Source: Dicyema japonicum | Lineage: Eukaryota; Dicyemida; Rhombozoa; Dicyemidae | DNA: 64,000 nt | Assembly (NCBI GenBank): GCA_011109175.1 | Contig: RDEW01000001.1 | Location: 651,862 to 715,861 of the forward strand | Direction of reading: 5' to 3' | Shown: piece by piece, positions 20,200-63,700 of the stretch | How positions within the stretch are numbered: position 1 is the stretch's first letter | Layout: each line of letters starts with the position of its first letter | Program-made: the position numbers and the translations under genes | Notes under the pieces: model-generated | The model's input: only the letters and a program-made list of their open reading frames with translations | Told to the model about the DNA's origin: nothing | The model's database searches: none

Positions 20200-21760
20200 G
20201 CCTAGACCCTTAAAAGAACCAATTACAATTTGAAAGTAAAAACAGCATGTCAAAAACTAAAAAATAACAGAAACCCCGAACCAGATACGATAAACCCAGA
20301 ATTACTGAAATACGACCCTGACCCCCTTTTTGAAAAAAATCGCTACACTACTAAATGAAATGTTTTCAACTAACTTAACTTTACATCCTGGTAACGGGAT
20401 TACAAATACAAAAACCAAATAAACCCAAAGGACCGGTTGAAAACTTACGACCTATTATATTATCAAATTCTCTACGGAAAGTGTTAGCTAACATTGTATT
20501 GGAACGAATAAAAGGACCCGCCTATGACTACCTACCCGAAAGTCAAAATGGGATCAGAGAAGGAAGATCAACAGCTGATGCAGTCTGGAGTCACAGATAG
20601 AGATGTGCAACACATCAAAGATATTGCAATGCCACCCACATTCTGGGAATAGATCTATCAAAAGCCTTTGATTCGGTAAACAGGAACAAATTGATGACAG
20701 TGCTGGAAGGATTTATTGACGAATCCAAATCTTTCTATTTAACACAGAGCTCTTTGTGAGAGTTGGAAAAACCTACTCAAGAAAATTTGAAACAAACACA
20801 GGCACTCCTCAAGGAGACTCCTTCTCTCCGCTACTATTCACAATATACTTGGAGGCCGCTATGAGGGAACTGAGACCATTATACCAAGGAAAAATAGAAG
20901 AAGTGATTTATGCTGATGATGTCGACCTAATCTCTGAAGACAAAGAACTCCTGGAACATGTACTAGAAAAAACACCAGATATAGTTGGGAAATGGTTTCT
21001 CACCGTGAACAGGGAGAAAACAGAACGGATAGAAATAAGACGAAAGAATAACTCACTCGAAGAGAAATGGAAACACATAAAGAAACTTGGATCTTTATTC
21101 TTAGATAGTAAAGATATCAAACGGAGAAAAACCATGGCAAACGCGGCACTACACAGGCTGAAAAATCTTTGGCTAAAACGGAAAGGGTATAACATAAAAC
21201 AAAGGATTATGTTATACGACACCTTCATCAAACCAATCCTACTATACAACTCTGGGACCTGGGCCACCTCTAAAGAGGAATTGGAGAAGCTAGACTCATT
21301 TCACAGGAATCATCTAAGAAACATAACTGGAATGTCCTGGCAATCCAAAATCTCGCGGAATGGACTGTACAATAAGTGTGACTGTATGCCATTAAGCCAC
21401 GAGATCATTAGCTCTTGTTGGAGACTTTTTGGGCACGTCCTGAGGTTTGATCCGATATCCCCTCCGAATATCGCAATGGAAGATTACTACTCCTCCAATT
21501 TAAAACGCTTTCGTGGAAGACCGAGAACTACCCTCCCGGTCGTTCTACAAAACGATCTGAAAGTCGTGAAGAAAACATTGGCATCTGGTGACGATCTGGA
21601 CTCACTGAGGGACCTAGCAAAGAACAGAAGAGCTTGGAGCAACCTAACTAATTCTCTTATATTTTTTGCTGCACATGCGGCTCGTGAAAGTGCTAATAAT
21701 AACCATTCGGTTGTCATAAAGATAACACTACCATAAATCTCTTCAAAGTAACACATCTGA
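20200..21760 (+). mobile_element. LINE-A, RT half, nearly intact
   Basis: The best plus-strand LINE-A. From about 20400 the fingers are readable in shifting frames (KPKGPVENLRPIILSNSLRK, REGRSTADAVWSH, GIDLSKAFDSV). From 20756 one 326-codon frame covers NTGTPQGDSFSPLLFTIYLE, the catalytic YADDVDLIS, KWFLTVNREKTE, GSLFLDSKDI, NSGTWA, CWRLFGHVLRF, FRGRPRTTLPVVLQNDL and the C-terminal DLAKNRRAWSNLT. The 3' UTR is GCACATGCGGCTCGTGAAAGTGCTAATAATAA. No endonuclease is present, so it is 5'-truncated near 20.2 kb. Frameshifts before 20756 imply an inactive copy. Confidence 0.9.
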
Positions 21761-24840: not shown

Positions 24841-25357
24841 AATGATTCTGGAGAATCATAATAATTCTTGCAGATAATCGTCTCTCTTGATACTTTTCAA
24901 ATCAACTGATGAACTACTAGCTTCTAAGTGTGACCCCTTAAATTCATAAGGAAAAAAAAGACTACCAACTTATAGCAATGAATTGTGAGCATCGAGTGAC
25001 GAGCACGGAATTCATACTGGTATAAATCCATTGTGATCAATGCTTACAAAAACTATATATTAGATGCTAAGGTTTGTTAAATCGCATTATAATTTGTAAT
25101 CGTATTGTATAATTACTTAACTAAATTTAAGTAATTTTATTTGTGAGAAAAGTTTGGTATCTTCTGTTTAAAATCATCTTAATTTTCTTTGTAGGACAGG
25201 TGACTCATTGTATATATTTTAAATATTTGCTGTTAACTATTATTTTTGATTTTTTTATTTTTAATTAATAAAAATAAATAATTTAATTAAATTAAAAAAT
25301 TAATAAAAATCAAATTTGATATAAATATTAATAAATATAGAGATTAAGTTATTATTA

Positions 25358-26135
25358 ATGCAACTAATAAGTTGTAAACATATTATAGTGATTCTGATTT
25401 ATGTAATATTCTCTACAAAAATGAAAGAAACTGTCATTGGATATAAACAAACAGATTGTCCTATTCCTACGTGGATAGTCCCAATAAAGTCAAATCATCA
25501 GACCTTTTCAGTCTTATTTCAAGGTATAGTAAATCTATTGTTTTATGATGATGCTAAAAAAGTATTAATTTTATAAATGAAGATAAAATACGCTAATTTG
25601 AATGATTCTACAATCATTTATACAAAAAATACTTACACACAAGAATATGTTATAACTCTGAAATATTGGGAGCTAGGATTTTCGTTCTCTTTTGTTGAAA
25701 CTTATGGTAAAACTTTCGAAATCCAATATTTCGAAATAATTTTTTATGGTAATAAAGCAGTTTAAATAAACCAAGATCATGGTCACTTGAATGAGACCAA
25801 GTATTCCAATCAAGTTTGGGATGGTAAATTCTTGGACTGTTTCAGCTTGAGGATAATATTTGAACAAGTTTACATAGTGACCATTTCTCATTTGAAATTT
25901 CAAATTTTTTATGGAAAAAATGGCACAACTTTTATCGGACAAGGTTAAATTTATTATAATTATTAGGATTGACGTGTGACCGTAGATTGACAATCACTTC
26001 ATACACTACACTTATTGGTAAAATTATATTTATTTTATAGAAAATGATTTTGGTACTTTAGAACAGTGCAGTTCCATAAACCCTACAATGTTGGGCAAAT
26101 TAATGATTCTCCTGTTGGGAATATTAGTTATTTAA
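25358..26135 (+). CDS. secreted 227-aa protein, paralogue 1 (5 exons), family unrecognised
   Basis: Exons 25358-25561, 25583-25748, 25776-25943, 25967-26017, 26041-26135; introns 21, 27, 23 and 23 nt, all GT-AG. The joined frame is 684 nt with no stop. Residues 1-20 (MQLISCKHIIVILIYVIFST) form a signal peptide. The body is strand-rich with aromatic/hydrophobic alternation and few charged runs. It has Cys in TDCP, FLDC, TCDRRLTI and EQCSS, and sequons such as LNETKYSN and NGTT. The protein ends in a purely hydrophobic tail (MLGKLMILLLGILVI) with nothing after it, as in GPI-anchor signals or a terminal membrane segment. I do not recognise the domain. The paralogue at 32277-33054 has the same exon phases and exactly the same length. 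An extracellular surface role is inferred. Confidence 0.85.
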
Positions 26136-26823
26136 TTATAATTTGGACTTTATTTTTGGACTTTTGTCTTTGGACGTAATCACTATTTAACATTCTACCA
26201 CAGAGTGGCCAGGTGGGCTTGTTTTTCTTGCAATGGTTACATAATGTCCCCGACGTAGAAAATAACAAATTCCTGTCTTGTAAATAAGTTATTCCTTAGT
26301 CACATAAATGAACTGTTTGGTTCACAGGAAATGCAATTAAGTGTTCTGTAATTAGTGTAGCATCTTAATTAATCTGGGAGGTCGATTCTTAAATGAACAT
26401 CAATAGATTTATATTCGAAATTTTTTATTTCTAATTACGAAAACAATTTAATCACTATTGTTTCTATCGGTTGATTAGCCGTCACATAATAAATATTCCA
26501 AATCTGGGATTAACATAAATTCACTATGTGAATAGGGTCTTCACAAAGTTGTCTTGTTCAGTGATTTATGCCATTTTATAATATTTAATGGTACCCGTCT
26601 ATGTTCGTTGTCTCTTACGATTGCAACGGAGATCAATTAAAGAAACTAGTTGTCTCACGTGCGTCGTGATTTGAGTGTAGTCAGATGTCATAGCTTCTTG
26701 AGGAATCGAAACGATTTCCCTCTTATTCTTTCAGTCGTCTCAACTATCAATGTGAACCGGTCTAACAGCACTTTGTATTTTTTCCTTCCTTAATAGCTTT
26801 TTCTGCAGTATGCAACGTGTTTA
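26136..26823. other. AT-rich flank, nothing recognised
   Basis: The first 30 bp continue the similarity with the flank of the second paralogue. No exon chain or RNA gene seen. Around 26600-26690 a patch resembles the reverse strand of 7050-7160. Confidence 0.35.
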
Positions 26824-27230
26824 TCACGCTCCCGACAGTGTTAAATGGTAGATACACATGGCATCCCATACCAATCGCTTCCCCTCCTCGAACGGAAGGA
26901 TTGTAATTCCGTCCGGCTGTTTTCCATCTCCTCTGTCAAAGACGACCAGTTCTAGTATGTTGGGCTTCACAATTCCGTTTATCGCCTTATATCTTGGGAA
27001 TCGTTCTGCGCTTTTTCGGCAAGAAAGGTCATAATGTCCATAACAGTCCACGATACCACCGCACCGGCACAGCAGTCAGCCAGTAGCGTCAGTGTTTGAT
27101 TGATGCAGAAGTTTCTCATATTCATTTTCGTAGATGGACCTGTAAAGATTTCTCTGTTTAGGCTTCCAGATGATCCACTTCTCTGATCTGTTGAAAGTTG
27201 AAGAATCATCACTATAAGCAGCTCTCTGGA
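26824..27230 (-). mobile_element. element D relic, best-preserved core
   Basis: Minus strand: YGHYDLSCRKSAERFPRYKA, then NILELVVFDRGDGKQPDGIT, then LPFEEGKRLVWDAMC. This is the most readable copy of the element D pattern (GLSCRRSAGR..RH..LN..., GKRPDG.TLIPW..GR.LVWD.T). Upstream is a second frame with remnants. One key residue differs: the usual RPDG is QPDG. Confidence 0.65.
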
Positions 27231-27599
27231 ACTAAATGAGGACAGATATGCAGGGTCTGCTAAATCGAGGTTTCTTGGTCGTTAAATTTAACATTTGTAA
27301 GACGTTCGGTAGTGGTCCGGAAGAGGAGATCGATAGTTTTGAGTTGTTTTATTTTTTATAAAATCACACGAATTTTTTAATTTAAAATTATAAAACTTAT
27401 CCTCTTAAACAGTTTGTATGCCACAATCATGTTTACAGCTATAATCTTAAATACTTTATCATCTAGGACTTGGGGAAAACGGTAGTTGTCACAAGCATAA
27501 ACTTTGTATTCTTTATAGATTGATATCTGGTTCAGCTTTCAAATATGTCACAGGCGCTACTCGTTACACTAATGGACTTAGAAAAATCGCTCCGATGTC

Positions 27600-28065
27600 G
27601 AACGGAAGATCCCGCCAATATGTGGGATTTAGTCGAATTTTCGCTGGTTGTATTGTCATTGAATCAATTACCATTAACGTCATGTCCATTCCATACATTA
27701 TTCCACTCCAACTGTTTCCTTTATGTTTTTAGTCCAACACTTATCTTCGGACATCATCTTAGATAGAGATTATCTGATTGAACCGTTCGATAATCCCTTG
27801 ACTCCTTGGATTGTTAGGCCTACTATGAAATTGTTAGACGTTGAAGCAGTCACATAATGCTCTTACATGGAATGTCACATTCTGACACCACTTTCCGAAT
27901 AATTTCTCTTTTCACGAAAAAAATCTTTCATTGCAATATTGTTCCAATGTGTTGTGTCCACAATCGGTCAATTGATGAATTTGCGAGGCCATTAATTCCA
28001 TTCTTCATGATTATCAGAAAAGATGACAATTTTGTGGTTTCCATTTGTGTCTTTAAGGTATAACC
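27600..28065 (-). mobile_element. retroviral-type integrase relic
   Basis: Minus strand at about 27780-27835 reads RPNNPRSQGIIERFNQ, the GRPRHPQSQG-x-x-ERxN motif of DDE integrases around the catalytic Glu. Further upstream DTNGNHKIVIFSDNHEEWN may be the region with the second Asp. Many stops. It is the only DDE-integrase trace in a window otherwise dominated by non-LTR elements; LTR-type, Polinton-type or domesticated origin cannot be separated. Confidence 0.5.
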
Positions 28066-28404
28066 TCCCATTGATAGATAAAAAATTCTTTGACTTTTGA
28101 GTTAATCGGTATTTTTTGTCTTGTCATTATATCGAAGATCCCCTTCTCTTCCATTATATAAATTTATTCCTGGGTTGTTTTTACGAAACACAGAGCCGTC
28201 AGTTTAACTTTATAAAACACGCCTGTATTATGCTATTTAAAATTTAAAAACTGCGACTTCCAAAAATATTTAACTTAGAATTTTTTTTACTTTTAAATAT
28301 AATAAATGAGAAAGACGTGTAAAGTTTTATAAAAAATGCTTGAAATTATTTTGTTTGAGTATTATGTAACGCGTAGCGCTCGGTAACGCGTAACGCATGT
28401 GACA

Positions 28405-31100
28405 TATTATTATTACCCCCAGGATCACTGGGTCAAAGAGAAAGAAATAAAAGTTCTCATCTAACTAAGTGATCCCAGACTGACAAAGGAGAGGACGAGT
28501 CTGGCGGGGTTGAGAATCCTGAACAGCTCTTCTCATTGGACATGGCATCGGCTCAAAATTTCTGTATGATTGTAGATATTTCGATAGTGTATGGTATATA
28601 GGGCAGCTGGGTAAACTAGCCTCCTTTAATAGTTTCCGTTGTAATTAGATTAAGAAGTTTTCAATGGGCTGGATTTTGTGTTTTGGTCCAATTAACCTTA
28701 TTGCAGTCTCCTCGATTGCGGATAGTTTCAATGAGGAAGATCGTGAGATCTGCATTGCCCATGAAGGACTTGCATACGTCATCGTTGGTCGGATAAATTG
28801 TTCATAAATCGTGGCAAGGCCACCAGTTTGGTCTCTAAGTGTTTTTGAGAGCACTTTTAAAATTCTCATTTTTTCAGAGCAGAAGTTACTTTGTTTTCAA
28901 CATGCCGGATAAAGGTGAGTCCCTGATCAAAGGTTACTCCCAGAATCTTCGGTGTTTTGTTAATAGAGATAGCTTCGTTCTTCATAAAGACTTTTGGTTC
29001 GATACAGAGCTGTCTTTTGTAGGTGGTAAACAGTGTGACAAAGGACTTTGCTGCTGATATGTCGAGTCTCCGCTTCGAGAGCCATAGTTCCAGCTTGTTG
29101 AGCCATCTGAGTCGTGGTAAACAGTGTGACAAAGGACTTTGCTGCTGATGTGTCGAATCTCCGCTTCGAGAGCCATAGTTCCAGCTTGTTGAGCCATCTG
29201 AGTCGCTGATTGTATGCTTCTGTTTTTGGAGGCAAGACTGATATCGTCGGCATAGGAGAGGATTAGACAGTTTTCATTACAGGTTTGTGGCATGTCGTTT
29301 ATGTAAAGATTGAATAGTTGGGGTGATAGTGAGGAGCCTAGAGGGACTCCATTTGGGAAATAGCGAGATCTTGATTTAATGTTATTGTGCTCGTCTTCCA
29401 TTTAGGAAGTTTTCAAGCCAAAGTTTCAGGTTCGGATGGATGTTGGTTTCAAATATTTTCTTTGTTAGGAGTTTCCTAGGGACTGAGTCGAACGCTTTTG
29501 TGATGTCCACGGATATAAGTACTGTCTTCTGATAGGGATTGGGGGAGTTAAATCCTTCCGCAATGAATTGTGTGAGGGTTGTAAGGTGTGTTGTTGTCGA
29601 ACGGTTATCTCGGAATCCGTGCTGGTTAAAGGTATTGAGATTGAGTCTTGTATTTTTTCCAAAACAAGGGGAGGTTTTTGCAGAGAGTCTTCGATAGTCT
29701 CGTCCATCTATTTGCATTTTCTGCCTTTATGTTGTTGTCGATCTCTCTGTTCAATTTTCGTATTTTCCTGATGTTCTCTTCTGTTGGCGATTTTACCATC
29801 TTTAGATTATTTCGTTCTCTGATCAGATGTTTCGTCGTTGTGTTGAAACGTTTTGATGACGTAGGTTGTCTCCCCATAGGAATGTACTTCTTTTTCGCAG
29901 CGTTTATAATGGAGTTGAACCATTTCACTAATTGTTCGACGGAGAGAGGAGTGGGGAAATTTAATAGTCCAATACAATTATCGACGTATTCCTTGAATCC
30001 TCACCAATTCGGAAGGCTGTAGTTAGTTATCGTTGGGCATTGTCCTTTTATCTGTGACCTTGTTTTGACCTCCAAAAATATTGGATTGTGGTCACTCCTG
30101 GTGTCATACTTCACTGACCAGTCAATAAGTGGGGCCAAGGACGGTGATGACAATGAGATGTCGATAGAAGAAGGTCTATCGTTACGTCGAGTAGGTGTTC
30201 TTGTATGAGATGCAGGATCGTTAAGTATACATAGACTGTGGAAGTCCTCAATTATCATCTTCCCAAATTTGTCGTAGGTTTGTCTTGTTAGCCACAGTGA
30301 GTGCTTTGCATTGAAGTCACCACAGATAATCACATCCTTCAGTGATGTGAGAGGAGTCAATCTGGGAACACTGGACGAGCAGGAACTCAGCAGGGGGAGA
30401 TATGCGTTGATAATCATTATCGATAGTTTTGGGAATCGTACTTTGGTAACCAAAGGTTCGAGATTTCCATATCATTTAAACATAGTGTAAGCACTGTTAG
30501 TTAAGTCCTCAAACAGAATTCCGTTGCGGATAACTGTGAGAAGACCCCCACCAAGTTTGCCAATTCTGTCACGGCGAATTATTGTGAATCCCGGAAATAC
30601 TTGTGTTGAATTCTTTGGAGAAAATTTAAACTCTTTAATTAGCAACAGATCAATGTGATTTTCTNACAATTATTATTGATAGCCTTGGGAATCGTACTTT
30701 GGTAACCAAAAGTTCGAGATTTCCATATCCTTTAAGCATAGTGTAAGCACTGTTAGCTAAGTCCTCAAACAGAATGCCGTTGCGGATAACTGTGAGAAGA
30801 CCCCCACCAAGTTTGCCAATTCTGTCACGGCGAATTACTGTGAATCCCGGAAATACTGGTGTTGAATTCTTTGGAGAAAGTTTAGACTCTTGAATTAGCA
30901 ACAGATCAATGTGATTTTCTTTCACAAATGTCTTAAATTCGAGTATTTTGTTCTTGATTCCATTTATGTTGAGTTGGACTATTCTGGCTGGTCCAGGGTT
31001 TGCCTCATCGTCTCCGCAGCGGCGCAGGCCTTCCTTATTGGTCCACTCGTGAAGATAGGGGAAAGTGTGGTTCTTTTTTTCCAAATACCACCACGTCGTC
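28405..31100 (-). mobile_element. LINE-B, nearly full length (2A-like, APE endonuclease, RT)
   Basis: Read on the minus strand from 31100. A leader ends in GDDEANPGP, similar to a 2A ribosome-skipping site. Then the AP-endonuclease: VQLNINGIK, LLLIQESKL, GGGLLTVIRNG, ICGDFNAKHSLW, SDHNPIFLEV. Then RT: QHGFRDNRSTTTH, DITKAFDSVPRK, NGVPLGSSLSPQLF, LSYADDISLASKN, NKTPKILGVTFD, IYEQFIRPTMTYA. The 3' end is near 28405 with GTGATCC...GGGGGTAATAATAAT. Frames shift several times. Two direct duplications interrupt it: 30418-30664 with 30666-30912 around a single N at 30665, and about 29025-29115 with 29116-29205. Inactive as assembled. Confidence 0.93.
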
Positions 31101-31859
31101 GGCGAACCACATTCAAAAAATAGTGAACAAAAATCGTAAAAATAAGACTTGTAGACAAAATGGATATTTTAGTTAGATTAACTGCAATAGGAAGGGAACT
31201 CAGCTAATATTGAGAATAAACATGGAGTTTCTCTAATTTTTTTAATAAAAAGTACAAAAAATATAATAATGCACAATATATTAAGAAAGTAAAAGTATTA
31301 TTGAAGCAAAGAAAAATAGTTAGGAATCTTAATGTCACATGCACTGACTAGACGTTCCATATCAATTTTTATTATTATTTTAGTAAAGTTACATATATCT
31401 TTTTGATGTCATTAAATTCGATTTATTGTTAATTTTATAAATAATTTAATATTAAACTTAATAACACTATACTCAAATACCTTATACTTTAGGGAATATT
31501 CCCTACTAATGAAGTCATTCAAAAACGGCATGGTGCCTCCAAAAACTTTCTTCTTCATAAACAGAAATTCTTCAATACGCAGGACAGCCGCTATATGACC
31601 ATTTGTTCAATTTTTTTCTAAATAAAATATTTAACATTTACAATCAAAAATGAAATAAATATATTAGCAGAATTAGGCATAAAACAAAATTCCTATAGGA
31701 TTTGTTTAATCATATTAAAGTTTTTAATCGTATTACTTTATACTCAAACTTAGTAATTTTATTTGTTAGAAAACTAAATTTTAAATTCCAATTTTCTGTT
31801 TAATTCATCTTTTTTTCAAAACAGGTGAGTGTATAAATACTTGTCTTTAGCAATATTAG
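31101..31859. other. AT-rich intergenic
   Basis: About 75 percent A+T. Poly-A/T tracts and no gene, SINE or LINE signature recognised. Confidence 0.35.
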
Positions 31860-32116
31860 TTATAGCTACTCCCAGAGAGAACAGTTATCATAACTAATCG
31901 AAGAGGGAGAATTAAGGAATGCTCTTCAATTATTTTTTCTTTTTGTTAATGGGTCCTTTTGTTGACGATTCGGTTACGCAGTTAAATGTTCATTGATGAT
32001 GGCGTCACTCGTCAAATCAAAGCATCACAGATGTGTGGAACCTTCAGCCGAATGGTACAGCAGCGAGATTTGAGTTAGGAGCGACCAGGATTCGTTACAC
32101 TGCGCCACCCTGGGAT
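31860..32116 (-). mobile_element. SINE-1, diverged copy
   Basis: Shares with the 8.7- and 48.8-kb copies the segments AACTAATCG, AGGAATG, TGATGACGCC/TGATGGCGTCACTCGTCAA, GTGTGGAACCTTC and CAGCAGCGAGAT, ending in a degraded tRNA-like head (GCGCCACCCTGGG). The LINE-like tail is lost. Confidence 0.7.
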
Positions 32117-32276
32117 TCTATATATTTTAAATTTATTTTTGTTATTTTAATTTTAATTAATAAAAATATAAATATAATGCTAACATGAAAAATGAATAAT
32201 TTATATTAAATTAAAAAATTAATAAAAATCAAATTTGACATAAATATTAATAAATATAGAGATTAAGTTATTATTA

Positions 32277-33054
32277 ATGCAACTAAAAAGTTATAAACAA
32301 ATTATAGTGATTCTGATTTATGTAATATTCTCTACAAAAATGAAAGATACTGTCATTGGATATAAACAAACAGATTGTCCTGTTCCTACGTGGATAGTCC
32401 CAATAAAGTCAAACCGTCAGAGCTTTTCAGTGTTATTTCGAGGATTAATAAATATTAATTATTATCATGATAACACAGTATTAATTTTATAAATGTAGTT
32501 ACATGCACTTAATTTAAATGATTCTGAAATAACTTATTATAAAGATAATACATTTACACCACCATATGCTATATCTTTACAATTAGAAAAAATTGCAATT
32601 GAATTTGATTTTGAAGTTACTAGTGCTGGTGTTAATATAATTCACATCGGACTTATTATCAATGGTGATTTGTTATAATTTAAAACCAAGGAATATTTCA
32701 TATCAATGCTACTAAATATTCGAATAAAGTAGCATATAGTGGTCACTTGGATTGTCCTAATTTGTTGATACATTTCGATTCAATTCACTTAGTGAAGATT
32801 AATTATATGAAATTTCAAATTTTTAATGGAATAAATGTCACAACTTTTTCTGGAAAACGTTAAATTTATAATAATCGATAGAATCAACATGTGATGCAAG
32901 ATTAACTATAAATGAAAAAGTTAAGCCACTTACTGGTAAATATATATTTTATTTTATAGATTGTAACCATAAAAAACAACATAAAAGATGTTCTATAAAA
33001 TCTACAATGTTAGGTGAATTATTGATTTTCCTGTTGGGAATATTAGTTATTTGA
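32277..33054 (+). CDS. secreted 227-aa protein, paralogue 2 (5 exons), family unrecognised
   Basis: Exons 32277-32477, 32499-32664, 32691-32858, 32882-32935, 32960-33054; introns 21, 26, 23 and 24 nt. The joined frame is 684 nt, 227 residues. Same plan as paralogue 1: signal peptide MQLKSYKQIIVILIYVIFST, TVIGYKQTDCPVPTWIVPIK, the sequon block INATKYSN, HLDC, MKFQIFNG, TCDARLTI, and the terminal MLGELLIFLLGILVI. Extra Cys occur in LTDC and KRCS. By eye exon 1 is about 80 percent identical to its partner and exon 5's tail is nearly identical. Exons 2-4 fall to about 30-45 percent amino-acid identity, whereas introns 1, 3 and 4 and the 5' flank stay clearly alignable. Not recognised as any known domain; cell-surface or secreted role inferred. 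Confidence 0.85.
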
Positions 33055-33089: not shown

Positions 33090-34080
33090 TATTAATAAGT
33101 AACCAAACAAAGGAGTTTGAGGCTAAATAGTATGATGAGATTGATGTTGTCATCCGTAAAGTACTCAGAATACCATTTCCATGTGATGGCAGCTAATAAC
33201 GAAAGACTATATTTACCTCGTGATGAATATGGCCGTACTATGTGGAGTATTCCAACCTTAATGAGCGTATCCTTATGAGAATCATCACACCTTGATAGCT
33301 GGGTCGAGTGTGTCTCTAGGAAGCATGACACAATAAGGACTGAGAAAATATGGGCAACTCACCTATGCACTATCAGATCTTTTTTGTTTTCTAAGTGTGA
33401 TGTTGATGATGGTCTAGGAAGCATGACACAATAAGGACTGAGAAAATATGGGCAACTCACCTATGCACTATCAGATCTTTTTTGTTTTCTAAGTGTGATG
33501 TTGATGATGGTGAGCTAGCAAATGGAATGACAAAATTAATAATTTGAATGAAAAGATCAACTTAACAAGTCTTCATAAGATCCTCTTCATAGAATTGGAC
33601 AACCCACACGTCGTCCTTAAGTCGCCGACAGCATGGGTAAAATATTGTGACAACTCACCGTTATCGGCGTTATACACGTATATTCAAGATCTCAATATTT
33701 TGGGGGTCACAATTGTTTGTCAAAGAACATGCCAGTTGATCATTTTGTCACTCGGTGTGGATCCAGGCTCTACCATGACTTTTTAGGGATGCATAACGAG
33801 GTTGTGAAGAGTCTTAATCTTCTATTATAAGTATGGTATTCTCCACATAAGAAAGTTACGGACTCATAGATGCAATCTGAGATAGACAAAACCAGGGTCC
33901 AGTGTTGTCCGAACGTCGGTAGTAGCCAAGCACAGTAGACCTGACATTGTGGTACACGATAAGGAGTCTGACCAAGTCCTTATCATAGAAGTAGGCATCA
34001 TTTCCTAAGACCGTTTGCAGACTGTGGGGGTAGAGAAAAAAGTAAATATGACATCCTTGCAGCGAGATGGGGCAGATCCT
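33090..34080 (+). mobile_element. R2/NeSL-like element relic (RT end and nuclease domain)
   Basis: Plus strand: IDVVIRKVL, NERLYLPRDEYGR (the RLYLPR-x-x-GRG block typical of R2-like thumbs), then a zinc-knuckle-like MPVDHFVTRCGSRLYHDF, HNEVVKSLNLLL, and RPDIVVHDKESDQVLIIEV, the restriction-like endonuclease core. Many frameshifts. 33312-33411 is directly repeated at 33412-33508. Unlike LINE-A and LINE-B it shows no AP-endonuclease. Confidence 0.75.
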
Positions 34081-42782: not shown

Positions 42783-43821
42783 ATGGTGGATAAACTCAGC
42801 GATAACTTTCGTGATAAACTGAAACTGCTCTTCACTGTCAATGCAAATAAGAACCCTCACACTCAACCAGGGAGAATCTATACCCTTGTTTGGAGTCCCA
42901 ATGGGGATTCTATTGCCTTCAACTCATCAGACAAGTCAATTGTGATCGCCAAAGTGGAACAAAACAAAATCGTAGCCTTATTGCTTAATTAGAGACCACC
43001 TCAAAAGTTCTCGCTGGACATACTGACGAGGTCATTCAACTACAATTTTGCCCAGTCAACGACCAAGTGATCCTATCTGCCTCATACGACAAGAGTATTA
43101 GATTGTGGGACCTCAAGACAGCCTCGGTCTTAGCCAAGGTCAAAGGTTGATACTTTAACTAATTTTAGTGGACTGCAGTCACTTCGACTGGTCCTTGGAT
43201 GCGAAAGAGATCGCTGCAGTAGGCAGAGATTCCGTGATTTATTTTCTTGACGGAAAAAACCTTAAAATCCTAAAGAAAATGCCTTTAAAAATGGACATTA
43301 AGGGAATAAAATGGGGGACCGATCAGTCTCTTATATACATTATAACTGGTGAAAGTTCTATCCTCATTATAAGGTATTATCAGTGTATAATGTCAGTCAC
43401 CTTCAACAGAAGGTTATTCTTACTCTGAATGCCCACACAGCGAGTTGTCAGTGCTTGGAATTCGATAGAACAGGAAGATTCTTTGCTGTGGGTAGTTCAG
43501 ATGCCACTGTGAGTGTGTGGACTACAAAGGAACACATATGCTTGTACAGTCAGTTGCGATTAGATTGGCCTGTCCGTTCTTTGGGGTTCAGTTTTGATGG
43601 TAATGTGTTGGCGGCTAGTTCTGAGGAGGACTCTAATATTGATGTCTCAATGACATGTAATGGTTTTGGTTGTGTTTATTTAAGGAACTTGTCTGTTTTT
43701 GATTGCTTCCAAGCATTGCCAGTTGTTAGAGTGGAGTCCTTGTTCCTATATGCTGTGTTGTGTATGTGAAGATGTCGATAAGAATGTTAGTACTATTAAA
43801 CTTTATGGGAAAGCCGATTAG
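42783..43821 (+). CDS. THOC3: THO complex subunit 3, WD40 protein (5 exons)
   Basis: Beta-propeller subunit (TEX1) of THO/TREX, coupling transcription and splicing to mRNA export in the nucleus. Exons 42783-42971, 42995-43145, 43169-43373, 43397-43662, 43685-43821; introns 23, 23, 23 and 22 nt. The joined frame is 948 nt, 315 residues (human 351). WD repeats are visible throughout: GRIYTLVWSPNGDSIAFNSS, AGHTDEVIQLQFCPVNDQVI with IRLWDLKT, FDWSLDAKEIAAVGRD, NAHTASCQCLEFDRTGRFFA. The most diagnostic block is RLDWPVRSLGFSFDGNVLAA (human RLDWPVRTLSFSHDGKMLAS). The C-terminus CCVCEDVDKNVSTIKLYG aligns with FACDDKDG...TVKLFG. The N-terminus is about 35 residues shorter than human. Confidence 0.92.
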
Positions 43822-49275: not shown

Positions 49276-49899
49276 ACGTTGAAAAAAGTGTCTATAGATT
49301 CTGTAAAAGCACGATTCTGAATTTCGGTCTGGCATTGTGTGTTTTCTGAGTAAAGTAAATCCAATGACTTCACCAGAGGAAGGGAAGAGATCCTACAAGG
49401 GCAATTATTATTATAAGCAAAAAATATAATCATATTAGCTATAATTCCATTCGTACCGCGTTTGTACGATCCTCGATATTAATTTCTTCCATCTTCTATT
49501 CGATGCCAAAGACGATTTTATGACAATAAATTCGAAAATTTGACCTTTTTAGCTTTTTAATTTTAAAATAATTTTCAAAATAATAAAAAAGCTTTCAACA
49601 ACTGCAATTAACTCCCCACATGACTGAATTATTTTGACTATGTAACAATTTTGTTAAATAAAACTTTTTAGTGGATAGTCAATTTCAATGAATCTTTGTC
49701 TTGCATGAGATTGTAGCACTCTTATCCAAAAAATAAAAAGATCAAACAGTTGTAAAAATGTATACTCAAGTAAATTTGCATATAAAACTTTCGATACTTG
49801 AGCAGTACTATGCGCACATGTCGCAAAATATCGGTTCTGTCAATCAAAACAATCCCAAAAATCTTCAGAGGAATCTAAAACGAAAGGATTAAAATTATA

Positions 49900-51105
49900 C
49901 TTTAAAAGATATTCAACATGGTTTCAAATGTGAGCGTTCAACTACGACACATTTGACTTCACTGTCTCAATTTATATCAGAAGGGTTCAACGTACCGAAA
50001 CGCCATCTACGGACAATAATGGTTTCCCTGGATATCCAGAAGGCGTTCGATTCTGTCTCGAGAATATCACTCACGAAGAAGGTTTTTGACACCACCATTC
50101 AGACGGATTTGAAAAGATGGATAGCCAATTTTCTCTCCGGAAGAAGAGGACGTGTCTGTATAGGCCACGCAAGATCGAGGTCCCGTCTCCTACCAAATGG
50201 CGTCCCTCAAGGATCGCCCCTCTCTCCGGCATTATTCAACTTGTTCCTCAACGATTTACCCTGCCCTGGAGGACCAGATTCAATGCTTCTCACTTATGCT
50301 GACGACCTAATCATCGCTAGCAGGAACAAATACGTGGGTACAGCAAAATCAGAGCTTCAGTCACATATTGACGACCTGGGAGCCTGGTTGAAGTTGAATC
50401 GTCTCTCCGTATCCAGGGACAAATCAACATATACAATTTTCACCACGGACAGAAAAGAAAAACATACACTTGATTTGAACATTTTTGGAGACTCCTTACC
50501 ACTACAGACTCGTCCAACTATCCTGGGAGTGACATTTGACCCTTTGATGTCATTTTCTCAACATGTGAAGAACGTTATGACAAAGGGTCTCAGGAAACTT
50601 AATATTATCAAACCGCTCTTGAAGTCCAAACCTTCACAGGAATGCGCCCTCGTCGTGTTCAATCAACTCCTAAAACCGACGATTGAGTACGCCTGTGCCT
50701 CATGGGCCTATGGAGCTTCGATATCAAATTCACTCAAGATCAATACCCTAATTGGAAAACTAGCACGTCAAACGAATCTACCCCCCGATCTTTTCCCTCC
50801 AATGCTTGACCACGCCGCAATCAAAAATAATGGCTCCGGCTTCATCTGTCTGTGTGGCCAAGAAACAAGTCGTTTCTTCCATTCAAGGCTAAAGGCTTCA
50901 AATACACGAAATTTGGGGAAAAACCCCACTCCTCTTCAAACCCTAATGAAAGATGATCGTCGTTTATTCAGGAAAGCCGTGGGTACTCTGGAGGAACACA
51001 GGAAAAACCTCTCGATCCTGTTGAGGCGTACCGGGATCACTTAATTAGTTGGATTACTCCTTCTTTCTTGGTGTTCCCTTTTCGGGGTTATTAAATAAAT
51101 AATAT
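49900..51105 (+). mobile_element. LINE-B, 5'-truncated with intact RT frame
   Basis: From about 49905 one uninterrupted frame runs to the natural stop at 51044: FKCERSTTTHLTSL, SLDIQKAFDSVSR, PNGVPQGSPLSPALFN, LLTYADDLIIASRNK (catalytic box), RLSVSRDKSTYTIF, TRPTILGVTFDPLMS, IEYACASWAYGAS, CLCGQETSRFFHSR, KDDRRLFRKAVGTLEEHRKN. The cysteine-containing C-terminus and 3' UTR (ATTAGTTGG...TTCGGGGTTATTAAATAA) are intact, so it is a recent insertion. It lacks the endonuclease and could not move itself. Confidence 0.93.
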
Positions 51106-54099: not shown

Positions 54100-55206
54100 T
54101 CACAAATCTACCGTTGATTCCATCACATTCTGACAACGATGACAATAATATTTTAAATTATCCTTACTACTCGCCGTTCCCCCAATAAGATCATTCGAAA
54201 ACTTCATAAATTCAACAACAGAGGACTCCCCCATAAAGGATCTCTTACACAACACACAACAGTCATTACTCATTTCAGGTAATTTCAGTTTTTTACAAGT
54301 TCTGAAGGCAGTATTCGTTGTACTCACATGACCCTTCTGTATCCTGCTAATAAAGTTTGAAATGTCATTCCTAAGTCGACAATCCACGTGGGATGGTTTC
54401 TAAAATCAACCATAAGCCTACTGGCTCATCAATATTAAACATTATTCCATGAATATTTGAGTAGTCGTCAATTTCACTGACAGTAAGTCCAGCCAAAGCG
54501 TTTATCACTGTGATTTCACCAAAAGAATCAGTCTCCAACTAAACAAGGATCACTACAACTAGAAACTGCTGCAAAGAGACTGTTTCTCCCATTACCGATA
54601 CTCATATCATACAAAAACGACTCTAAAGTGTTTGTTCTGCTCTTTGCAACCAAAATCTTTGATATGTTAAGTTTAGCTGCCACAAAGAGTAGAATTTGTC
54701 GACTTAATAAAATAAAATATTACATAATTATTTCCATCAAGGTCTCTCGCATTCTCGCTGTGTCTAATAAACCCTTGACAATTTGAGCCCTCTCTGTCAT
54801 GGTTTTCTCATCAGCCAATAGATCAAGAAACTTTAGTTAGATTACAATATACAGAGTAAATGCTCAGACTTATTTTATCCCCAGTAACAATAAAATCATC
54901 AATATCTTCTGTGATTTTGATGTATGTTGGTGTGAATCTTCTTTCTGTCTATTAAATTAAACATTGTAATACAAATTCAATCAAATGTGTTAAAACAGCG
55001 AACAATTTAGTATCTTCTCGGTGGATCAAAACACGTGTTGAAGTGAAAATTTCATTTTTCTTGCCGACCACGGCTCTGAATTTCTTATCACAGTAATTTA
55101 AGAAGCATTTTCTGTTATATTAATTAAATTATAACTTGCAGAAGCCCACGTCCTGGCACGTGTAGACATATGAAAATTCTGTACAACGACGGCATGAAGA
55201 CTTCAT
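54100..55206 (-). CDS. CTU2: cytoplasmic tRNA 2-thiolation protein 2 (7 exons)
   Basis: Partner of CTU1 in the URM1 pathway that thiolates wobble U34 of Lys/Glu/Gln tRNAs in the cytosol. Exons: 55206-55136, 55111-54973, 54948-54853, 54830-54724, 54702-54567, 54538-54422, 54399-54100. Introns 24, 24, 22, 21, 28 and 22 nt. The joined frame is 966 nt, 321 residues. The N-terminal Cys pairs CRRC and CKKC plus FRAVVGKKNEIF match the family's CVKC...CRDC...KFRAMLGKNRLIF. Later blocks: LNISKILVAKSRTNTLESF (KVMTGDSCTRLAIKL), FGEITVINALAGLTVSEIDD (VVVVRPMRDHTLKEVAFY). C-terminal zinc-like Cys occur in CCVLC and YYCHRC. Clearly shorter than human (about 515), with much of the central PP-loop-like region missing. 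Confidence 0.9.
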
Positions 55207-60759: not shown

Positions 60760-63700
60760 ACCCCGGGAACACAGGAAAAAGTTATCGTCTAATTAAGTGA
60801 TCCAGGTGTCAGTGCGTCCTCTTTTATTTCGAAAGAAACAACACATATGAAATGCACGGCTCAATGTACTAAAAGTAAAGTGGTTTTATTATTATTATAA
60901 CCCCGGGAACACAGGAAAAAGTTATCGTCTAATTAAGTGATCCAGGTGTCAGTGCGTCCTCTTTTATTTCGACTTTGTCTGCAATGTTTTCTGATCTTCT
61001 AAAAGGGAGAAGGTTTTATCTCAAATTTGCGAGCATCTGGTAGGCAAGAAACTCATCTTCAAGGGGGTTACCAGAAGATCGCACCATTTTCAAGAATTTT
61101 TGTTGTTCGTTACAGAGATGTTCCATAACTTTTTTGAGATCTAATTTGTTCCTCATTTCTGACATAGGCGTCATTCTGTCACATTTAAGAAGGATCCGGA
61201 GGCATTGATTTTGTATGACCTCTAATTTGTTCTGCGTGGACATTGACGAGGGTGTAATCCACGCATGTTCCATTATCGGTAGAATATACTGTTTGTATAA
61301 TAATTTGAGATGAGAAAGTTGGCGATCTAGCAAAGGTCTTGAGGATCCCCATCTTTTTTTGAACTTTTGAAATTATTGTGTCCACATGACGTGTGAACGT
61401 CATTAACGGGTCATATGTAACTCCAAGGATTGATGGGTTCTTATTAACTGGGATAAGCTCTCCATTCCAAATTAATTTAGGATCGAAAGATGTATGTTTC
61501 CTGTAGGAGGAGATAATCGCAGTGCTCGACTTCCCAGGGGATATTTTCATGTGGTTTTTGAGGAACCATGGGTTCATAATGTCGAGGGTCTCCTGAACCA
61601 TTCGTGCAGCTTCTTTATGGTCTTGCTGCGACAATGAGATCGTCGGCATAAGACCAAAGGATGGTATTTTGGATGATTGGATTTGGAAGGTCTCTTATAA
61701 ATAAATTGAACAAGGTTGGTGATAAAGGGGATCCTTGAGGGCCCCGTTTGGGAGGTATCGTTGTCTTGATTTTCTATTATTCATGACAACTTGGCCTTTT
61801 CTACCATTAATGAAATTGGGCACATTTGTCATAGGGACATACACATTTGCTATAGTCATTCGGAGTGAGTGTAACTTTTTCACTGTGAGTTGTTCTAATG
61901 GATCTTCAGTGTCCATAAAACTTGATATGTAATTTGAAAGGTACACAGCATTAATCTGATTATGGACAATGGTAAGTAAGCCTCCACCTCTTCCAAATTT
62001 TCGGTCTTCCGGAGCACGTAATATCCAAAAAACGTTAAAGTTGAATCTTTATGAGTAAGCTTTGATTCTTGAATTAAAGCGATATCCACTGAGTTGGACT
62101 GAAAAAATCGTAAGTTCAATTATCTTTGTTCGAATTCCATTTATGTTGATTTGGGCAATAATCGGGGAGAGATCACTCAAAAACAAATTAAAAAAGATTG
62201 GTGACAGAGGAGATCCTTGGGGTACACCATTGGGTAATAATCCCGATCTGGAACTCTTGTTTCCGACGGACACTTTCCCTCGGCGTCCACTTACGAAATT
62301 TGCTTACCATAACTTTAGTGGTGCATCAATTTTTGTCAAAAATATTTTTCGTATGAGGATCTTCCTTGGGACAGAGTCGAAAGCTTTTTGAATGTCGATT
62401 GTACATATGACCGATTTTTCCTGTTTTGGCTTGTTCTTGTGTCCTTCAGTTATGAACTTTATTAATGTTGTTAGGAAGGAGGTTGTTGATAATCCTTCCT
62501 TGAAGCCATGTTGGAATGTAGGTTGTGGGAGAGAAGGGCGAATAACTTTCTCCAGGATCCTCGACAAAACACATATAAGGGAAACTGGTCTGTAAGAGCC
62601 GGGATCGTTCTTCGGTCTTCCCGGCTTCAATATTGGTCGAATTTTTGATAGTTTCCATAAAGTCGGTATGGTATTTATGTTCAGCGATGTGTTGTAGATG
62701 ATTGTTAATGCATTTATTGATGCTGGGCCCAAGTGTTTCAGCAGAATAAGAGGAATTCCGTCTGGGCCACATGAGTTTGTTTTTTTCTGATTTGATATTG
62801 CTGTTCAGCGATGTGTTGTAGATGATTGTTAATGCATTTATTGATGCTGGGCCCAAGTGTTTCAGCAGAATAAGAGGAATTCCGTCTGGGCCACATGAGT
62901 TTGTTTTTTTCTGATTTGATATTGCTTTGGATACATCTTTAGGGGGAAAATAAATCAGCGGGGCAAATTTGGATGGTTTTCTCTTTATTTTCGTTTGTGT
63001 GTTAATCTTTTTATAAGGAATGTGACTGATTCGAATAGAATGTTTCATATATTTATTCAGATTGAGCTGGCATNAAAATAAATCAGCGGGGCAAATTTGG
63101 ATGGTTTTCTCTTTATTTTCGTTTGTGTGTTAATCTTTTTATAAGGAATGTGACTGATTCGAATAGAATGTTTCATATATTTATTCAGATTGAGCTGGCA
63201 TGTTCTTTGTTATCTTCGTATTCTGGGTTCTTCAGACGTCTCAACATCTTCCACATGTTGGAAATTGAGGTCTGATTATTCATGGCAGCAGAGATTCGCA
63301 TGAGTTTCTTCCTTTGGGTGTTGTTTGTGCTTTTCGTGATAAGAATGTTTAGTGACCTGATTCGATTAATGACCTCTCGTGAACGATGTATCATTCTCTT
63401 AAGGTTGTTTCCATAATTATTTTCTTTGTTTTTGAGTCGTATTTCAATTTTCGTTTTTTATATATGCTTTTCTGATAAAAATATTTCTCCCATCAATAAT
63501 TGTTTTGTTGAAATAGTATACAGCTTTGTCTATGGAGGAGAAATTTTCAGGTTGGAAATGTTGCAGTTTTGAATCAACAAAATTTGTAAAGCCAGTCCAA
63601 TTTGCATTTTTGTAATCATAAAAATGAATAGGCTTCGGTATAAAGCGTGGCTCGCGTTCAGCTTCATTAACATTGAATGGTGGTCGCTCCGGAGGTCATA

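Follow-up and report, generated by a model that had tools for sequence, protein, structure and literature searches.

The closest described counterparts of the genes analysed here are the LAMPs (lysosome-associated membrane glycoproteins), heavily glycosylated proteins of the lysosome in which a luminal domain of beta-prism fold is followed by a single helix carrying a conserved proline and two glycines and by a short cytosolic tail with a sorting motif. In DC-LAMP the first Cys pair is formed by residues 274 and 311, which lie 37 apart (available portion of PMC3409847). Dicyemids consist of about 30 cells, and their peripheral cells feed by endocytosis from the host urine (available portions of PMC6736024 and PMC6854800). 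Here we analysed 64,000 nucleotides of Dicyema japonicum (GCA_011109175.1, contig RDEW01000001.1, forward strand, 651,862 to 715,861), a stretch that as a whole is called the window, and in it two related genes, copy 1 and copy 2, which an earlier note had singled out from the letters alone as paired, rapidly diverging secreted proteins and a candidate undescribed surface family. The pair belongs to a small branch of a large superfamily of membrane glycoproteins, and its ectodomain is probably a divergent LAMP luminal domain.

The gene structure that had been proposed, two genes on the + strand with five exons, identical phases and 227 residues each, was confirmed at the coordinates below. Both genes have introns of 21–27 nt, phases 0, 1, 1, 1 and 227 codons, in models built from homology and GT-AG splice motifs only, so that the exon joins are predicted. 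The features of the pair are as follows (positions in the window):

25258..25357, +, 100 nt of 5ʹ flank before copy 1, with 92% identity to the copy 2 flank (sequence comparison)
25358-25561, 25583-25748, 25776-25943, 25967-26017, 26041-26135, +, exons of copy 1, 227 aa (homology and GT-AG model)
25358..25423, +, predicted signal peptide region of copy 1, residues 1-22 (sequence, hydropathy)
25424..26081, +, probable LAMP-like ectodomain and short linker of copy 1, with Cys145-Cys183, three sequons and introns 1-4 inside
26082..26132, +, hydrophobic C-terminal tail of copy 1, residues 211-227, GPI-like (glycosylphosphatidylinositol-like), without cytosolic tail (model, hydropathy)
32177..32276, +, 100-nt 5ʹ flank of copy 2 (sequence comparison)
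32277-32477, 32499-32664, 32691-32858, 32882-32935, 32960-33054, +, exons of copy 2, 227 aa (homology and GT-AG model)
32277..32342, +, predicted signal peptide region of copy 2, residues 1-22 (sequence, hydropathy)
32343..33000, +, probable LAMP-like ectodomain and linker of copy 2, with Cys144-Cys182, three sequons and introns 1-4 inside
33001..33051, +, hydrophobic C-terminal tail of copy 2, residues 211-227 (model, hydropathy)

The nucleotide match between the copies was far above chance (blastn E 6e-158), and the proteins were 53% identical overall. Identity was 76% in exon 1 and again 76% over the last 17 residues, and 35%, 48% and 47% in exons 2, 3 and 4, for which about 30–45% had been estimated by eye. 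Intron 1 matched at 20/21 positions and intron 3 at 19/23, and intron 2 aligned poorly. Cysteines C34, C145/144 and C183/182 were kept in both copies, as had been noticed, and the conserved N-x-S/T sequons turned out to number three per protein at corresponding positions, not one. The predicted signal peptide and the hydrophobic C-terminus (mean Kyte-Doolittle value of the last 15 residues 2.64 and 2.73) support the view that the proteins are secreted or membrane-anchored.

The family is apparently undescribed; it is, however, not a pair. At E<=1e-3, the union of successive searches from copy 1 and its relatives gave at least 157 loci, broken and gap-cut copies counted, spread over 60 contigs of an assembly of 64.67 Mb and 191 contigs (window GC 36%). 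Branches A to D comprised 90 rows, which clustered to 89 loci, and branch A, the window type, had 8 loci; branch E had 69. Four loci read at the weak end of the search that gave branch E are plainly of this kind as well and make up branch F: L098 and L101, within the threshold, and L099 and L100, two of 22 selected rows above it. Profile–profile probabilities were 98.4% for A-B, 99.0% for A-C and 97.4% for B-C; those involving E were 91.8% for C-E, 57.2% for A-E and 6.1% for B-E, and those involving F were 96.8% for E-F, 94.4% for B-F, 85.3% for C-F and 2.2% for A-F, compared to at most 1.6% in 40 reversed or permuted controls. Sequence comparison establishes the ectodomain as homologous among branches A, B and C, which agree in intron phase (phase 0 following exon 1 and phase 1 following the 'FTGxG' motif) and have two cysteines usually separated by 38 residues. 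This spacing was found in 21 of the 29 models with a matched pair among 46 scanned, and C145-C183 and C144-C182 of the window pair are also 38 apart. An origin of the dispersed copies as a mobile element, or as a viral glycoprotein taken up by the genome, would suit their number, the repeat-rich genome and the signal–ectodomain–membrane layout, but each of the 46 models retains at least one tiny intron, which argues against retrocopying, and a viral fold library gave no confident match (best E 0.015), so that we regard this origin as exceedingly improbable.

The proteins of branch B share the architecture of LAMPs. Their layout consists of a signal peptide, a beta domain, often a Thr-rich stalk, one transmembrane helix and a short basic tail, for example YKRRRRYYPLQIGIFNY. 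Among the 25 B models reaching the C-terminus, Gly-Gly was read by eye in the helix of 11, and 16 had a basic cluster together with a YxxL-type motif, [YF][YFH][PS]L. A LAMP tail pattern of the PROSITE type was matched by 7 of the same 25 models. Twelve B ectodomains carried 2–7 sequons each, and the E loci, in partial models, read as two luminal domains and a membrane helix.

The likeness to LAMP extends over what is probably an all-beta domain, some 150 residues long, which in the B-type is followed by stalk, single transmembrane helix and short tail, a Y-x-C ... K-x-Q ... C signature in the C-terminal half, the second Cys pair, the N-glycan sequons, and the two luminal domains plus helix of the E-type. 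There are also clear differences. The window branch has a GPI-like end instead of a transmembrane helix plus tail; unlike the B-type, which has the helix, the window pair ends in only about 15 hydrophobic residues, and the short cytosolic tail with its sorting motif is absent. Introns are tiny, and two A loci contain three tandem units. The superfamily numbers at least 157 loci, compared to five human proteins (available portion of PMC3409847).

An unselected fold comparison pointed to the LAMP luminal domain, below the formal threshold, and PF01299 was the best match, also sub-threshold, in 2 of 8 unselected C-type proteins. A profile search against the PDB gave only two matches, both to LAMP-1 and both below the formal threshold, and five E-type loci, themselves found by PF01299, had sub-threshold PF01299 matches. 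The second LAMP disulfide lies near the domain C-terminus, and a corresponding Cys pair is present in the window pair, its bonding being predicted. These results and the architecture and tail of the B-type concur on LAMP. Alternatively, these proteins form a secreted beta-domain family that is specific to the lineage and has no kinship with LAMP, the resemblance being convergent or due to chance, and several observations speak for this view. Every LAMP match is sub-threshold and some are selected: the best PF01299 score was 20.6 bits (L093) against a curated cut-off of 27.2 bits, PF01299 gave no match to the window proteins, and most of the profile that matched LAMP-1 had been chosen via PF01299, which makes the agreement partly circular and the Pfam and PDB evidence not fully independent. 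The first LAMP disulfide, which links the two sheets, has no counterpart, as the mature part before C145/C144 holds only C34. A search of 5.8 billion proteins with three family alignments, word-based and of limited reach, found no relative at E<=10 among 3237 (A2), 4178 (A4) and 1649 (A6) candidates. As the E loci were found, and most of the profile chosen, via PF01299, their agreement counts for somewhat less, and a family unrelated to LAMP appears a real but minority possibility.

The Pfam search of the window pair gave nothing of weight (best E 0.08). The earlier note had recognised no known domain; the domain is probably LAMP-like. A PDB search with the A4 profile gave six matches, none to LAMP, and one with a single E-type piece gave one match (E 0.13), again not LAMP; three F-type domains had no Pfam match, and structure prediction from a window protein alone yielded no usable model. 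B-type matches to TMEM154, RIFIN and Mid2 in Pfam (E 0.001-0.07) were set aside as transmembrane or stalk matches below cut-off.

The divergence of the two copies is a mosaic. Codons 1-55 were near-identical (synonymous divergence, dS, 0.056), whereas codons 56-207 had a Nei–Gojobori dS of 0.76 and a nonsynonymous divergence (dN) of 0.55; synonymous differences were 2 in 36.8 sites in the 5ʹ part versus 46.2 in 96.5 sites in the centre (p 1.6e-6). The earlier note had read the pair as evolving under diversifying selection, and one could suppose host-facing antigens in which positive selection drove amino-acid change in the central exons: exons 2–4 are only 35–48% identical beside conserved introns 1, 3 and 4, the proteins are secreted or anchored, and dN/dS (w) was 0.87-1.14 in 5 of 17 pairs of relatives. 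However, the dN/dS calculation proposed at the time gave, by maximum likelihood, a w of 0.35 in the central region, significantly below 1 (likelihood-ratio test against w=1, 10.5), and dS there was as high as dN, from 0.76 (Nei–Gojobori) to 1.8 (maximum likelihood). Across the 17 pairs, which are mutually dependent and some of which contain broken copies, w ranged from 0.07 to 1.14, with none significantly above 1 and nine significantly below, and four of the five pairs near 1 include copies with in-frame stops. Diversifying selection is thus rejected at the level of pairwise dN/dS, the only kind of selection test used, and positive selection on host-facing antigens is quite improbable.

The contrast between introns and exons, which had been taken as a sign of selection, is not evidence of it, because synonymous sites in the same exons have diverged too; the contrast sets AT-rich introns of 21–27 nt against exons that were probably homogenised in their 5ʹ part. 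In 11 B-type genes, intron 1 (of the GTAATCACATTATATTTAATAAAG type, 23-26 nt, for example L071 1089-1112) had changed less among paralogues (0.16) than synonymous sites (0.25-0.30), and intron 3 of the window pair likewise changes less than synonymous sites. In introns of 21–26 nt, the splice signal may make up most of the length.

The 5ʹ part of copy 2 was closest to copy 1 (0.93, against 0.72-0.77 to five other A members), whereas the centre of copy 2 resembled the same five more (0.67-0.70) than it resembled copy 1 (0.61). Neighbouring parts of the gene seem to have separate histories, because identity and synonymous change both differ between the 5ʹ part and the centre. The simplest explanation, judged from these comparisons, is that the 5ʹ flank and exon 1 of the pair were probably homogenised by gene conversion. 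Instead, the 5ʹ DNA could be under functional constraint, for regulation or splicing, and two observations speak for this: 5ʹ flanks are conserved across A members generally (0.74-1.00), and B-type intron 1 is itself slow to change. But in the 11 B-type genes the synonymous difference was similar in exon 1 (0.246) and exon 2 (0.298), so constraint does not explain the tenfold drop, and copy 2 is nearest to copy 1 in the 5ʹ part only; we consider constraint unlikely. A faster clock in the centre of copy 1 could yield part of the central pattern, not the synonymous contrast. With gene conversion, the pair would be an old duplicate whose flank and first exon were homogenised, the central exons having diverged under weak purifying selection; the impression of fast evolution would then arise mainly from the copying having been confined to the front of the genes. 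Variable surface-protein multigene families of parasites are alike in their many dispersed, clustered and broken copies, their secreted or anchored products and the conversion-like mosaic; they are unlike the present family, for which this comparison of sequences gave no evidence of positive selection or switching.

Branch A keeps the signal peptide and the domain and ends in about 15 hydrophobic residues without a cytosolic tail. As the window pair stops after 'LLGILVI', it cannot carry a YxxL-type sorting signal, and, to judge from their ends, such tail-less proteins are likely to have a GPI anchor instead. In the genome, one exon scores above the Pfam cut-off for C13 peptidases and by its motif reads like PIG-K, and there is also a weak Gaa1-like exon; the GPI-like tail that had been suggested is thus plausible. 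By analogy with LAMPs, the YxxL-type tails of the B-type would route proteins to endolysosomes. The glycoproteins of the family would coat endolysosomal membranes, the cell surface or both in cells that feed by endocytosis, and the tail-less A proteins, which have no sorting motif, would stay on the outside of the cell, probably GPI-anchored. The family may have a host-facing role. Taken as a whole, a pair within a large LAMP-like superfamily, with a coat role, A proteins at the surface and a gene-converted 5ʹ end, is the best explanation, and one in which we place moderate confidence.

Among the papers listed on dicyemid genomes and lysosomes and on LAMP evolution and expansion, we found no such family. 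The published D. japonicum genome has 67.5 Mb, 36.7% GC, a mean intron of 38 bp, 49% repeats and 5,012 genes, and the available portion of its description (PMC6736024) describes expansions of actin, dynein, mannose receptor, SLC46A3 and vitellogenic carboxypeptidase and names no LAMP-like family. A LAMP-like family of such size seems new. Its 157 loci, broken copies included, correspond to about 3% of the published 5,012 genes and would serve one membrane-coat domain. The superfamily would illustrate how far a LAMP fold can multiply and change its membrane anchor, and offers a way into the question of how a parasitic animal of reduced build makes host-facing or endolysosomal membranes. A bolder and rather doubtful proposal is that in dicyemids a housekeeping LAMP of the lysosomal coat became perhaps the largest family of the genome, with well over 150 variants and a mosaic kept by conversion, its tail-less branches, the window pair among them, having shifted from the lysosome to the outer surface to form a GPI-anchored coat facing the urine of the cephalopod host.

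Some loci of the superfamily are unusual. L027 (1658-3917) and L028 (1656-3913), both A-type (G000:C1, ~358-371 kb), have three head-to-tail ectodomain units each, with a single signal peptide and a single terminal tail per locus, some decayed splice sites and frame breaks. The B-type loci L053, L057, L060-L062, L089 and L092, on several contigs, share an in-frame stop in the signal exon, at codon 8, indicating either shared decay or an alternative start; they are otherwise mostly open, with w near 1 in the L060-L062 trio and 0.34 for L060-L089. The giant open frames G000:C41:15031 and C159:1014149 were rejected as fusions, being family genes cut by assembly gaps (N), and other huge frames (C87:409855, C115:1911842) may likewise be gap artefacts.

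Around the pair, the window contains the following:

30001..30471, -, endonuclease fragment of LINE type (long interspersed nuclear element), retrotransposon debris between the copies and outside the genes (Exo_endo_phos_2, E 2.5e-16)

Three LINE-type reverse transcriptase fragments (PF00078) lie at 20723-21733 (+), 49896-51041 (+) and 62307-62804 (-). Single exons resemble a papain-family cysteine protease (1461-1742, -, Peptidase_C1, E 1.3e-5), a THOC3-like WD40 protein (43353-43766, +, E 7e-27) and a CTU2-like tRNA thiolation protein (54103-54399, -, E 1.2e-6). Directly downstream of copy 2, inspection by eye showed about 100 bases duplicated in tandem (~33313-33512).

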